From: Sedimentibacter sp. MB35-C1
GTDB taxonomy: Bacteria; Bacillota; Clostridia; Tissierellales; Sedimentibacteraceae
Length of the DNA: 64,000 nucleotides
Reading direction: 5' to 3'
Assembly: GCF_030913635.1 (NCBI RefSeq)
Contig: NZ_CP133188.1
Location: 2,728,001-2,792,000 of the forward strand
Below, piece by piece: positions 3,873 through 63,118 of this stretch. Under the pieces are notes generated by a model. That model ran no database searches and was not told where the DNA came from. It was given only the letters and a program-made list of their open reading frames with translations. Every line of letters starts with the position of its first letter. Within the stretch, counting starts at the first letter, position 1. The translations under genes and the position numbers were made by a program.

Positions 3873-5533
<1,661 letters not shown>

Positions 5534-57819: not shown

Positions 57820-58672
57820 TTCTCTTCCTCACTTCCCTCAGAATCTCTTCTTTAGCTTCTTCAACTGTTATTATGTCAGGCTTTATATTAAAACCACGTT
57901 TTCTAAGTTCATTAACTATTTGGGCAACCTGAGGAACTCCAAGGCTGATTTTTTTAAGCTCATCAGCTTTGGCATATATCTCCTTCGTCTTGCCTTCCAT
58001 GTATATCTTTCCTTTATATAAAACAATTACTCTGTCAACCAGCTTGGCAATATCCTCCATGCTGTGAGAAATTAAAACAACAGTTACATTTGCTTTCTCG
58101 TGCAGCATTTTTATCTTTTCAAATAATTCATTTCTTCCAGCCGGATCAAGCCCTGCCGTCGGCTCATCTAAAATAAGATAATTCGGTTTCATTGCAAGAA
58201 CTCCGGCTATGGCAACTCTTCTTTTTTGACCTCCGGACAAATCAAAGGGAGAAGCATCCTTAATTTTATCATAGTTAAATCCCACCAGCTCAAGAGCTTC
58301 TCTAACTCTTTTATCTATTTCATCCTTAGTCAGGCTCAAATTCATCGGCCCAAACGCAACATCTTTAGCAACGGTTTCTTCAAACAACTGGTATTCTGGA
58401 TATTGAAATACAAGGCCTACAGTCTGGCGTACTTTGCTAAGCAATTTTTTTTCTTCGCCTATCGCTATTTTGTCAACAACTATTGTACCGTGTGTAGGTT
58501 TTTCTAACCCATTAAAAAGTTGAATCAAGGTGGATTTTCCCGAACCGGTATGACCTATAATGCCAACGAACTCACCTTCACGTATTTCTAAATTTATGTC
58601 ATCAAGGGCTACAGTCCTAAATGGAGTTCCCTCACTGTATATGTATTTAATATTGTCTGCTTTTATTGACAT
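57812..58672 (-). CDS. ecfA2: ECF transporter ATPase EcfA2
   Basis: This 286-residue ABC ATPase has Walker [26 protein letters not shown] as signature, and [16 protein letters not shown] as Walker B. It pairs with EcfA1 and EcfT to energise vitamin and metal uptake. I chose ATG 58672 with GGTGG about seven bases upstream; a TTG two codons before would be too close. It overlaps ecfA1 by ten bases and ecfT by eight. Confidence 0.95.
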
Positions 58673-59490
58673 AGCCAATCCACCAATTCCTTTACCTCGA
58701 TTATATCCCTGGGAACGTTCAGGCCTTCATCCGCCAGTTCCTTAGCAAGTTCAGTAACTTGTGGAACATCAAGCCCAAATTTTTTTATTTCAACAACATT
58801 CCTGAAAACTTCCTTAGGGGTTCCATCAAGCTTTATACTTCCCTTATCCATTATTACAACTCTATCAGCTTGTACAGCCTCATCCATATAATGTGTTATT
58901 AAAAGTATAGTCTTACCACTTTTCTTCAACTTATGAAGCGTTTCCATTACCTCATCTCTCCCTGACGGATCAAGCATTGCGGTAGGCTCATCAAGTATTA
59001 TACATTCTGAATTAAGCGCAAGGATTCCGGCAATTGCAATTCTTTGCTTTTGTCCTCCTGAAAGCATATGAGGAGGTCTTTTTCTATATTCATACATGCC
59101 GACCGCTTTTAAGGCGTCATCAACTCTTTTTCTTATTTCTAACGGTTCAACCCCTTGATTTTCAGGTCCAAATGCTATATCTTCTTCCACAATTGTAGCA
59201 ACAAGCTGATTGTCGGGATTTTGAAAAACCATTCCGGCAGTCTGACGTATGTCCCACAATTTAGAATCATCCGCCGTATCCATTCCATTTACATATATCT
59301 TTCCATCCGTTGGAAGAAGCAGTGAGTTTATCAATTTAGCCAATGTTGATTTGCCCGAACCATTGTGGCCAATTATTGCTGTAAACTCTCCTTTTCTGAT
59401 GTTCAAGTTAACTCCATCTACGGCAAAAGAGCTATCCTCGTTGTTGTATTTAAATTTTACATTTTCAATTCTTATAATATTCTCTATCAT
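58663..59490 (-). CDS. ecfA1: ECF transporter ATPase EcfA1
   Basis: This 275-residue ABC ATPase has Walker [10 protein letters not shown] at 41-49, signature [15 protein letters not shown] and [17 protein letters not shown]. It forms the ATPase pair with EcfA2. In Firmicutes ecfA1 normally follows rplQ directly; here a complete agr locus of about 3 kb lies between. A promoter at 59524-59552 can drive the ecf operon by itself. AGGTG precedes ATG. Confidence 0.95.
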
Positions 59491-59523: not shown

Positions 59524-59552
59524 ATAATATCATTATTCAATTAATTTTACAA
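59524..59552 (-). promoter_or_regulatory. Promoter of the ecfA1 operon
   Basis: TTGTAA (59547-59552), a 17-base spacer and TATTAT (59524-59529) on minus, about 35 bases before ecfA1. It makes the ecf genes independent of agrB upstream. Confidence 0.65.
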
Positions 59553-59586: not shown

Positions 59587-59616
59587 GAAAAAAGCAGCCC
59601 ATATCCGGACTGCTTT
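59587..59616 (-). terminator. agrB terminator
   Basis: AAAGCAG/CTGCTTT stem with a 12-base loop followed by TTTTC on minus, 20 bases after the agrB stop. It separates agr from the ecf operon. Confidence 0.78.
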
Positions 59617-59636
59617 ATAACCCAATACACAATGCT

Positions 59637-60197
59637 TCACTTTTTCAATAGACTTACCGATTCAATTACCATTGCCACAACTCCTGTAATGTAAACATAA
59701 CCGGTTTCTGCTCTTAAACAATATAAACTAACAGCAGCTAAGCTAAGTACTATAACTATTATTCTGCTTATTGTCTTATATTTTTTCTTCTCATTTTTAT
59801 TCAAAGGTTTATTTTCCGTTTCGGCCGGCGCAAGCCAAAAAACCATGAAAATAGAAAATATGATTCCAAGTACTAAAACAGTCTCCCCATATTGCTTTAG
59901 ATATGTACCGCACAATGCTGATATGACAAATATAGAAAATGATAAAAGCATACACTCAACATGCGTTTTGGCATGATAACCTCCGGCAAAAGTTCTAAGT
60001 CCCGAGAGAAAAATGATAAAAATTAAGAGCTCAAGTTTTTTGTTCAAAAGGTAAGCTGTAACAAAAAGAATTATCAGATTCAGCAAAAGAGACAGTAAAA
60101 CCTCTATGCTGTAGGCATACACAGCCTTTTCATTATCTGAGGAATTGAGCTTCGACCCAATTCCCTCAGACAAGAAAACAGAAATCTTATTTATCAT
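59637..60197 (-). CDS. agrB: AgrB-type peptide-processing membrane protease
   Basis: This 186-residue polytopic membrane protease cleaves AgrD and cyclises it. Catalytic His75 and Cys82 lie in LRTFAGGYHAKTHVECMLLS, matching the staphylococcal H77/C84 pair. The remainder has five or six hydrophobic segments. The start ATG overlaps the agrD end by 11 bases, so it is coupled to agrD translation; no strong ribosome site is seen. The order agrA-agrC-agrD-agrB differs from the staphylococcal agrB-D-C-A. Confidence 0.92.
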   Translation of the reverse strand: MINKISVFLSEGIGSKLNSSDNEKAVYAYSIEVLLSLLLNLIILFVTAYLLNKKLELLIFIIFLSGLRTFAGGYHAKTHVECMLLSFSIFVISALCGTYLKQYGETVLVLGIIFSIFMVFWLAPAETENKPLNKNEKKKYKTISRIIVIVLSLAAVSLYCLRAETGYVYITGVVAMVIESVSLLKK

Positions 60198-60324
60198 CTT
60201 TCAACAGGCATTGCGGAACCTTCGGCTGGTTATACAATAATATGCAAGTCATCCCCATGGTTGTTTGAGCAGTAGCCACCAAAAATGCAGCAATACATGA
60301 CATAAAGGATAAAGTTTTTCTCAC
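60187..60324 (-). CDS. agrD: AgrD-type cyclic lactone autoinducer precursor
   Basis: This 45-residue peptide follows AAAGGAGG eight bases before a GTG start. An amphipathic hydrophobic N-terminus (KTLSFMSCIAAFLVATAQ) precedes TCILLYNQPKVPQCLLKDDK. The core C-I-L-L-Y and the following NQPKVP match clostridial AgrD, where a cysteine thioester-linked ring ends at an aromatic residue and the QPK-P tail is removed. Predicted product: a five-residue thiolactone on CILLY, inferred. An extra Cys in the tail is unusual. It is too short for routine gene calling but its position before agrB fixes it. Confidence 0.88.
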   Translation of the reverse strand: MRKTLSFMSCIAAFLVATAQTTMGMTCILLYNQPKVPQCLLKDDK

Positions 60325-60354
60325 TTTACATTCCTCCTTTCAAACGTTAACAAC

Positions 60355-60383
60355 ATAATATATTATTTGTGGACAACATTCAA
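60355..60383 (-). promoter_or_regulatory. agrDB promoter
   Basis: TTGAAT (60378-60383), a 17-base spacer and TATTAT (60355-60360) on minus, upstream of agrD in the 189-base agrC-agrD gap. A repeated 9-bp element lies just upstream of the -35 box. Confidence 0.68.
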
Positions 60384-60394
60384 TAATTTTTAAC

Positions 60395-60403
60395 TCAGAT
60401 TGC
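60395..60403 (-). repeat. Direct repeat upstream of agrDB promoter (copy 1)
   Basis: GCAATCTGA on minus, 11 bases upstream of the agrDB -35 box. An identical copy is at 60495-60503, exactly 100 bp away. It may be an AgrA (LytTR) binding site, which is inferred. Confidence 0.4.
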
Positions 60404-60445
60404 CTATTCGGTTATTTTTGTTGTTTGAGCGGTATTGCATGGCGT

Positions 60446-60475
60446 AAAATAAACTTGTAATCAGCTGCTTACAAG
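60446..60475 (-). terminator. Weak hairpin after agrC
   Basis: CTTGTAA/TTACAAG, a perfect 7-bp stem with an 8-base loop, followed by TTTATTTTA on minus. It may partially terminate the agrA-agrC transcript before agrD. Confidence 0.45.
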
Positions 60476-60494
60476 AATAGTTCCATGGCTATAT

Positions 60495-60503
60495 TCAGAT
60501 TGC
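60495..60503 (-). repeat. Direct repeat upstream of agrDB promoter (copy 2)
   Basis: The second GCAATCTGA, just past the agrC stop. The spacing of 100 bp to copy 1 is far larger than the roughly 20 bp usual for paired LytTR boxes. Confidence 0.35.
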
Positions 60504-60513
60504 TTCGATATCC

Positions 60514-61833
60514 TTACATTTTTGCCATCATCTGTACTTCCACAACAAATACGTTGCCTTCATAATTTAATTTTACAAATCCTCCGTATTTCTCTGCTAT
60601 ACTCCTAATGCTCTTAAGTCCGTATCCATGCCTTGTTTTATCTTTCTTAACGGTGAGTAATTTGTCTCCTTGTTTATTAAGCTTTCCGCTATATGGATTT
60701 TCCGATTTTATTATGATGCAATTGCCCAGCATATCTATTTTAAGATTTATATATTTTTCATCGCATTTTGCACACGCTTCAATTGCATTGTTAATAATGT
60801 TATTTAATATCCGGCATATATCCTCCTTGTCAATATATATTTCATTTTCCTCTGTCAAGCCGCTTTGAATATCAACATCTATATTTTGAGAATTTGCCTC
60901 TTTAAGCTTAAAATTTAGAAATGATGTAATTATGTTATCCTTATCTATTTGAGGCAAGTGCTGTATATCCATTTCCCGGAGCTTTTTTTCAATATGTTTA
61001 GATATTTTCTCCCTTTGGTTTAACTCATTGTAGCCGTAAAGTATTGCCAGCTCTCCCCGCATATCATGTCTTAAAATTCGAATTTCTTCCAAAACCGAAT
61101 TAACATCAGAAAAATACGTGTGCTCCATTTTCATATGCTGCAGCTCAAGATCATTTTTATGTTTCTCGTCCATATCCTTTATTATTCGCCCTGTTAAAGC
61201 TATTGAAACTATTGAAATAAGCGATACGCACAATGTAAGAATAACCAAATTGGTATTTACAGCTTCATTTTCAATTTTAATGTTTCCGTACATCCAAATA
61301 ACCATAACTATTACGGTAACTGTTAAAAATAGTATTGTACCTACAAGAAAATAATACCTGTTATTAAGTAAGTTCAACTTTTCCTTGTTGATCTTTTTCT
61401 TCATAAACATATAGATATACACAAACAAAGTCTGAGATATTACCATACCCTCGAATCTTAAGAAATTTTGTTCTTGGTTTAGTTTTAAATCTAATCCAGA
61501 TATCGTAGAAATTAAAACAGCTGCCAATAATTCACATATACCAAGAATTACAATAAGTAAAAAGGTTATAACTGCTTTTGAAAATACATTTCCCCTAAAT
61601 ATAATAACTGTAAAAATAAAAATGAGTACAATGTAACTTAAATATATAAAAGGATTTAATCCAATTGAAATATTATAATTTAAAATGCACAATATCGCTG
61701 TCATAAATAAAATAGCAGTTTCCACTGAATACCTAAATCTGAGCCTTCGATCATAATTTAATTCAAACACTTTAAATATCACAAAGACTTGAAGAAAATT
61801 AACCAAAAACTCTATTAAATACCACTTGCTCAT
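60514..61833 (-). CDS. agrC: AgrC-type sensor histidine kinase
   Basis: This 439-residue kinase has about six membrane segments in residues 5-215 that would bind the peptide signal, a coiled linker, phosphoacceptor His256 in RILRHDMRGELAIL, and a GHKL ATPase with N-box NNIINNAIEACAK and GYGLKSIRSIAEKYGG. It is of the HPK10 type paired with LytTR regulators. It overlaps agrA by four bases. Its ligand should be the peptide from the agrD gene just downstream. Confidence 0.92.
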   Translation of the reverse strand: MSKWYLIEFLVNFLQVFVIFKVFELNYDRRLRFRYSVETAILFMTAILCILNYNISIGLNPFIYLSYIVLIFIFTVIIFRGNVFSKAVITFLLIVILGICELLAAVLISTISGLDLKLNQEQNFLRFEGMVISQTLFVYIYMFMKKKINKEKLNLLNNRYYFLVGTILFLTVTVIVMVIWMYGNIKIENEAVNTNLVILTLCVSLISIVSIALTGRIIKDMDEKHKNDLELQHMKMEHTYFSDVNSVLEEIRILRHDMRGELAILYGYNELNQREKISKHIEKKLREMDIQHLPQIDKDNIITSFLNFKLKEANSQNIDVDIQSGLTEENEIYIDKEDICRILNNIINNAIEACAKCDEKYINLKIDMLGNCIIIKSENPYSGKLNKQGDKLLTVKKDKTRHGYGLKSIRSIAEKYGGFVKLNYEGNVFVVEVQMMAKM

Positions 61834-62561
61834 AATTTCACCGCCAATCTTTTTAGTTTAAACTTATTATTCAATTCCGCCAAACACCTCCGGCTTGCCT
61901 CTTCTCTTGCTTCATTGCTGAAATAAACTATATTTTTTTTGATTGTCCTGACATTGCGCATATTTATCAAGCATGATTTACTGGCTCTTACTATGTAATC
62001 ATTGCACTCCAGTTCTTTTTCAATACTTTCAAGTGTTTGCACAATTATTACTTCTTCTTCATCCAAACGATGTATGTGTACTTTGCGATCTTCTTTTTTG
62101 CGCAATATGTGAGTTATTTCATTTACAGGTATCCGGTATTTTACTCCTTTAAAATCCTTTACATCCAAAAACATTACTTCTTTCCTGATTTCTTCGTTGC
62201 ATTCACGCAGAGCATTTTCTATAATACTTGTGCTGACAGGCTTTAAAAGATAATTTTTGGCTTTGACCTTGTAAGATTCATATGCGTATTCTTTATATGA
62301 AGTCAAATAAAAAATAACAGGATCTTTACTTTTTTCCCTAATCAGCAGACCTGTTTCTATGCCATTTAATTCAGGCATTTCCATATCTAAAAATATAATG
62401 TCAAATTGATTTTTCATAAACGCTTGTACAAGATTTCTACCTGAACTATATGTACTTATTTTGCAATTCATATTTATATTTAAGGCAACCGTTTTTATTA
62501 TTTCGGTCACTATTTCTCCATATTCTATGTTGTCATCACAAACAGCAATATTGAATCTCAT
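61830..62561 (-). CDS. agrA: AgrA-type LytTR response regulator
   Basis: This 243-residue regulator has a receiver domain with acidic Asp9/Asp10, phosphoacceptor Asp59 in FDIIFLDMEMPELNG and Lys107 in YLLKPVS. A LytTR DNA-binding domain (about 135-243) follows. It presumably activates the agrDB promoter and other targets when phosphorylated by AgrC. It is the first gene of the locus, with a promoter at 62586-62613. It lies in the gap where ecfA1 is usually next to rplQ. Confidence 0.92.
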   Translation of the reverse strand: MRFNIAVCDDNIEYGEIVTEIIKTVALNINMNCKISTYSSGRNLVQAFMKNQFDIIFLDMEMPELNGIETGLLIREKSKDPVIFYLTSYKEYAYESYKVKAKNYLLKPVSTSIIENALRECNEEIRKEVMFLDVKDFKGVKYRIPVNEITHILRKKEDRKVHIHRLDEEEVIIVQTLESIEKELECNDYIVRASKSCLINMRNVRTIKKNIVYFSNEAREEASRRCLAELNNKFKLKRLAVKL

Positions 62562-62585
62562 ATTTTCACATCCCTATAATAGTAT

Positions 62586-62613
62586 ATTATATCAAATAAT
62601 GAAAATTTTTCAA
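62586..62613 (-). promoter_or_regulatory. agrA-agrC promoter
   Basis: TTGAAA (62608-62613), a 16-base spacer and TATAAT (62586-62591) on minus, 25 bases before the agrA ATG. Confidence 0.7.
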
Positions 62614-62687
62614 TGTATGATTATAAGAACTTTTAACTTAAGTACACAAATCAATCTTTAATTTGTTCGTTCTCCATGCTGTGCGCA

Positions 62688-62726
62688 CAAAAAAAGCAAC
62701 TTAAATTTTTTAAATTGCTTTTTTAA
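62688..62726 (-). terminator. rplQ operon terminator
   Basis: AAAAAAGCAA.TTAAA/TTTAA.TTGCTTTTTT stem on minus followed by TTTTTGTG. A second hairpin ACTGAAAGGG/CCCTATCAGT at 62728-62754, one mismatch, lies between it and rplQ. These end the alpha operon before agrA. Confidence 0.85.
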
Positions 62727-62776
62727 AACTGAAAGGGAAAAATCCCTATCAGTCATATTTATTTATTTGATGAACT

Positions 62777-63118
62777 CTATACAAGTTCAATTATCGCCAT
62801 TTCTGCTCCATCGCCTCTGCGTGGTCCCAATTTTAGAATTCTGGTGTATCCACCGTTTCTATCCTTGTATTTAGGAGCAACTTCTTCAAATAGCTTACTT
62901 ACTGCATTTTTGTCATATAAATAAGCTGCCGCCTGACGTCTTGCATGTAGGTCTCCTCTTTTGCCCAGAGTAATTGTTCTTTCTGCAACTCTTCTTAATT
63001 CTTTAGCTCTAGTTACTGTTGTAACAATTCTGCCTTTATTAATTAAGTCAGCAGTCATATTTCGAAGCATTGCTACTCTGTGGCTAGTCTTGAAACCAAG
63101 CTTTCTGTGACTACCCAT
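62777..63118 (-). CDS. rplQ: 50S ribosomal protein L17
   Basis: This 113-residue protein has the family opening [20 protein letters not shown] and [20 protein letters not shown], ending in [16 protein letters not shown]. Length is normal. AAAGGAGG precedes ATG. It lies 20 bases after rpoA, the usual end of the alpha operon. Confidence 0.98.

Follow-up and report, generated by a model that had tools for sequence, protein, structure and literature searches.

Why does a complete agr quorum-sensing locus lie between rplQ and ecfA1 in Sedimentibacter sp. MB35-C1 (genome G000), and is this position peculiar to the strain? The window analyzed here is the whole stretch of 64,000 nucleotides (G000:C1:2728001-2792000) from a 3.62-Mb single-contig genome. 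Our open reading frame list and family searches gave the minus-strand order rpoA, rplQ, agrA, agrC, agrD, agrB, ecfA1, ecfA2, ecfT, and truA in the window, and positions 59587-62726 cover the agr locus including the terminators on both ends. Elsewhere in the window, a 16S rRNA match at 3883-5531 measured 1649 bases against a model of 1533 positions and probably contains extra sequence.

Our reading, to which we assign a probability of approximately 0.85, is that the locus is a standard, self-contained A-C-D-B agr module in a genus-level position, and that the cassette entered early and was inherited mostly vertically, with loss, replacement, and exchange. The gene content, gene order, signals, and distribution behind this reading were established from the genomes compared; the working of the module is proposed from homology.

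Genes and regulatory signals of the module

The features of the locus and its borders are as follows.

58663-59490, minus strand: ecfA1, energy-coupling factor ATPase, right border of the site (TIGR04520)
59524-59552, minus strand: ecfA1 promoter, TTGTAA-17-TATTAT (promoter scan and genus comparison)
59591-59616, minus strand: agrB terminator (RNA fold z -3.3)
59637-60197, minus strand: agrB, membrane peptidase (PF04647)
60187-60324, minus strand: agrD, 45 aa, GTG start (TIGR04223 and orthologue alignment)
60355-60383, minus strand: agrDB promoter, TTGAAT-17-TATTAT (conserved in the genus alignment)
60401-60432, minus strand: putative AgrA (LytTR) box, direct repeat CCGnnYnRnCA / CCGAATARRCA (conserved in the agrC-agrD gaps of all intact carriers)
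60514-61833, minus strand: agrC, sensor kinase with GHKL ATPase (PF14501, HATPase_c_5; hydropathy; motif columns)
61830-62561, minus strand: agrA, response regulator with receiver Asp and LytTR DNA-binding domain (PF00072, PF04397)
62586-62613, minus strand: agrA promoter, TTGAAA-16-TATAAT, extended -10 (11/12 consensus match)
62690-62754, minus strand: rplQ terminator, two consecutive stem-loops, the second closing on a T tract (RNA fold MFE -28.4 kcal/mol, z -6.0)
62777-63118, minus strand: rplQ (L17), end of the rpoA-rplQ unit, left border of the site (PF01196/TIGR00059)

The claim of a complete agr locus, made in a preliminary description of this DNA, was borne out by family matches and conserved motifs in all four genes. 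AgrD scored 25.4 bits against TIGR04223 (quorum_AgrD; cut-off 19), and AgrB scored 132.5 bits against PF04647. The His75/Cys82 pair of AgrB lies within GGYHAKTHVEC at the spacing of known AgrB proteins, and both residues are invariant across 13 orthologues. Hydropathy showed about 7 hydrophobic peaks in AgrC, which predict about six to seven membrane segments, and its RHD H-box, N-box, and G-box are conserved among orthologues, as is the phospho-acceptor motif LDMEMPE of AgrA. The agrA and agrC genes overlap by 4 bp, and agrD and agrB overlap by 11 bp. Judged from their sequences, AgrA, AgrB, AgrC, and AgrD all appear to be true members of the agr system, and a putative direct-repeat box lies upstream of the signal-gene promoter. 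Two further AgrB genes of MB35-C1 were found in unrelated loci (L289 and L290) away from the ribosomal cluster; the proteins of these loci are approximately 27-29% identical to those of the window agr locus, with which L289 has the A-C-D-B order in common.

The agr2 locus of Clostridioides difficile, agrACDB, is a complete module that has its four genes, their order, and a LytTR regulator in common with the window locus, which is an ordinary agr system in an order already known from agr2 (PMC3754575). However, agr2 is thought to form one transcript, whereas the window locus has a conserved, separate agrDB promoter and an AgrA box. The Staphylococcus aureus system (agrBDCA plus RNAIII) resembles the window locus in its protein families and in the AgrA direct repeats upstream of a promoter, but differs in gene order. 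A literature search for agrB in Sedimentibacter found nothing.

The putative AgrA box of MB35-C1 is ACCGCTCAAACAACAAAAATAACCGAATAGGCA, with half-site starts 21 bp apart, and lies 17 bp upstream of TTGAAT-17-TATTAT. Its proximal half is approximately 58 bp 5' of the inferred agrDB transcription start, similar to the promoter-proximal AgrA repeat of S. aureus, which is centred near -60 (PMC4227749). Whole-genome scans with two patterns, both allowing up to 3 mismatches (weaker sites could escape), each detected only one box in MB35-C1, at agrDB. The scans also hit the agrDB box in every other intact carrier of the cassette, although in G007 with the looser pattern only. Non-carriers contained no convincing match at up to 3 mismatches. 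Unlike S. aureus, which has RNAIII, MB35-C1 yielded no second box marking a P3/RNAIII unit in scans at this threshold, which weaker sites could escape.

A wider AgrA regulon in MB35-C1 was discarded because box scanning gave the agrDB site alone. Weak hits in G007, G014, and G024 resembled chance or repeated unrelated sequence. Only G010 yielded a further good box, at L306:2450-2800 (G010:C59), with TTGAAA-16-TATAAT after it and then a short stretch containing a 63-aa ORF and a stem-loop; this may be a small gene or RNA under AgrA control, specific to G010.

Alignment of the AgrD orthologues, which share TC/TS-xxxx-NQP[KR][VA]PQCLL, predicted a cyclic ring, C27-I-L-L-Y31, followed by the tail NQPKVPQCLLKDDK. 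The predicted rings include CILLY (G000 and G010), CIFLV (G015), CLFLY (G008), CILFI (G005 and G013), and SIFIY (G018), the last of which is predicted to be a lactone because Ser replaces Cys. In the nearest pair, G000 and G015, the AgrC proteins are 70-85% identical in residues 41-160, within the membrane sensor part, and 95-100% identical beyond residue 160, and the ring changes from CILLY in G000 to CIFLV in G015. Such differences would be expected if signal and receptor change together.

By homology, processing, signalling, and regulation would proceed in the usual manner of agr systems. AgrB would cut AgrD after Tyr31 and close the five-residue thiolactone ring Cys27-Ile-Leu-Leu-Tyr31; the cyclic peptide would be released and, on accumulation, sensed by AgrC, which would phosphorylate AgrA. 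The LytTR domain of AgrA would bind the 21-bp-spaced repeat at 60401-60432 and activate agrDB, giving a positive loop, and agrA-agrC would be transcribed from a separate sigma-A-type promoter.

Distribution and history of the cassette

The preliminary description also held that agr breaks a canonical rplQ-ecfA1 order and proposed that the junction be compared in related genomes. In both sister genera rplQ is directly followed by ecfA1, and the order rplQ-ecfA1-ecfA2 was found in 14 of the 15 genomes sampled from other families of the order, the exception being G027, which has other genes at the junction. The break in gene order was thereby confirmed, and the canonical arrangement holds outside the genus; however, the cassette is not peculiar to MB35-C1.

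The junction was compared in 25 genomes of the genus, and its state was called in 24 (G022 was left out). The agr cassette adjoins rplQ, ecfA1, or both in 13 of the 25 (G000, G001, G004, G005, G006, G007, G008, G010, G011, G013, G015, G018, and G020); the contigs of G004 and G006 end before rplQ, and the fetched contigs of G001 and G007 end before ecfA1. A fourteenth genome, G012, has agrA beside rplQ, followed by the contig end. Four genomes have a plain rplQ-ecfA1 junction (G014, G016, G017, and G023), and six have other DNA there (G003, G019, G024, G009, G002, and G021, with contig ends nearby in the last two). The position of agr is a genus-level trait and the majority state in the genus, and some species have lost or lack agr. 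The preliminary description named as its refutation an agr locus at this site in all close relatives, making it ancestral; the position is indeed ancestral at about the genus level, although some close relatives lack agr there.

Some carriers differ in arrangement. In G007 (L036) and on contig G011:C280 (L282) the order is C-D-B-A, with agrA downstream of agrB, and a gap of 680 bp remains between rplQ and agrC. The G011 bin is probably mixed, since it has two agr-ecf versions on two contigs (L049 and L282), one of which is nearly identical to that of G007.

When AgrC was searched for in 249 genomes of the order, the orthologues at the rplQ-ecfA1 site proved to be 54-92% identical to the window AgrC. 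The next-best AgrC, at 38%, was a G024 paralogue encoded in an A-C-D-B locus at another site, and identities outside the genus were 29% or less. A radA-like gene adjoins L288 (G024:C5), which is a divergent agr locus in the A-C-D-B order (AgrB 55%, AgrC 37%); the rplQ-ecfA1 junction of the same genome has a transposase, not agr.

Distances for agr correlated with those for alaS (Mantel r 0.70-0.84, p 0.0002). A comparison of the agr tree with a species tree, also proposed in the preliminary description, gave a divided answer. The deep branches agreed with a species tree built from alaS, rpoB, and rpoA, but the finer topologies rejected each other (AU p ~0.001 with 11 taxa and 9e-6 with 13 taxa), and strictly vertical inheritance of agr is ruled out by these tests. 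Equal-cost parsimony preferred approximately five changes from a root without agr; an ancestral gain followed by approximately eight or nine losses wins only where one gain costs more than three losses. Parsimony by itself decides neither for the five or so changes nor for one early gain with losses.

The AU incongruence and the parsimony preference suggest that recombination through shared flanks may often transfer the cassette, and recombination through conserved flanks could move it between relatives. Independent insertions of orthologous cassettes at one point and in one orientation are implausible. The cassette was probably gained once, by the genus ancestor or close to it, and then underwent losses and some exchange. 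In the history that we propose, it would have settled between the terminator of rplQ and the promoter of ecfA1; its descent would since have been mostly vertical, interrupted by repeated loss or replacement and by some exchange between related genomes.

The rplQ-ecfA1 junction and its neighbours

The alternative that survives best would add to the agr explanation: the junction may be a recurrent entry and exit site for small cassettes, with agr as one of several cargoes, helped by REP-like palindromes and perhaps by REP-associated (Y1/IS200-like) transposases, and with deletion by recombination between flanking repeats. We regard this as possible but tentative. Several junctions are as it would predict: G003 (L293) and G019 (L037) hold permease and B12-radical SAM genes, G009 holds approximately 19 kb, G002 has an SLH protein beside rplQ, and G021 has a GH18-like gene near ecfA1. 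G024 has a Y1_Tnp transposase and a polysaccharide deacetylase; GGGGACTGTCCCC palindromes lie close to each border, in a layout that resembles that of REP-associated tyrosine transposases (PMC2817692). G005 and G013 have palindromes of the GGGACGGTTC type on both sides of agr, G023 and G016, which are related but empty, have a single short palindrome copy at the junction, and the repeat is dispersed in the G005/G013 clade (2 to 130 matches per genome). However, the REP-like repeat is absent from the window and has one match in the whole MB35-C1 genome, in agreement with the preliminary description, which saw no mobile-element ends; moreover, REP elements tend to occur at the ends of genes in any case, and near-identical strains showed no deletion junction. 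Repeat-mediated loss of agr is a reasonable hypothesis.

The insert in L037 and L293 is approximately 7.8 kb long and comprises a Trp/Tyr permease, four consecutive B12-binding radical SAM-like genes, and an unassigned 352-aa gene.

A broader proposal is that in this genus the rplQ terminator and the ecfA1 promoter bound a recurrent, REP-shaped exchange site, where an entire quorum-sensing module is lost, replaced, or swapped together with its species-specific signal types, and that the AgrA of these genomes has essentially a single strong target, namely its own agrDB promoter. We consider this combination rather unlikely.

The self-contained module that we favor also has to be set against coupling to its neighbours. 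Since agrA lies approximately 215 bp downstream of rplQ in the same orientation, read-through from rplQ might couple agr expression to ribosomal-protein transcription, and the preliminary description had suggested that neighbouring highly expressed genes may affect agr activity. The analysis gave no support to such an effect: a strong double stem-loop separates rplQ from agrA, and agrA is preceded by a near-consensus promoter of its own, which can be recognised in most carriers in the genus alignment. The promoters and terminators that the same description placed on both sides of agr were found, and the promoters are conserved in the genus. The ecfA1 promoter, or a close variant, occurs in nearly all genus genomes, whether the junction holds agr, is empty, or holds other genes, which indicates that the cassette sits between the terminator of one unit and the promoter of the next. 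The two stem-loops and the separately conserved agrA, agrDB, and ecfA1 promoters argue for an insulated locus with its own switches rather than reliance on highly expressed neighbours. On this predicted terminator and promoter evidence we rejected coupling to ribosomal expression, which appears very improbable.

A recent, strain-specific horizontal insertion into the ribosomal cluster, which the canonical order outside the genus and the lack of a close AgrC homologue beyond the genus in the order might have suggested, is refuted to near certainty by orthologues that share its place and orientation in 12 or more further species of the genus and by the matching deep phylogeny.

Implications for the genus

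The locus contributes a well-resolved agr family, including a predicted signal peptide and a precise box for its regulator. It represents a complete quorum-sensing module that has long resided beside the ribosomal-protein cluster in one genus, although not in every member, at a junction that varies across the genus and where REP-like palindromes flank agr in some relatives. The AgrA box offers a direct handle on AgrA-controlled targets, and the nearest species pair, with predicted CILLY and CIFLV rings, provides a test case for signal-receptor divergence.
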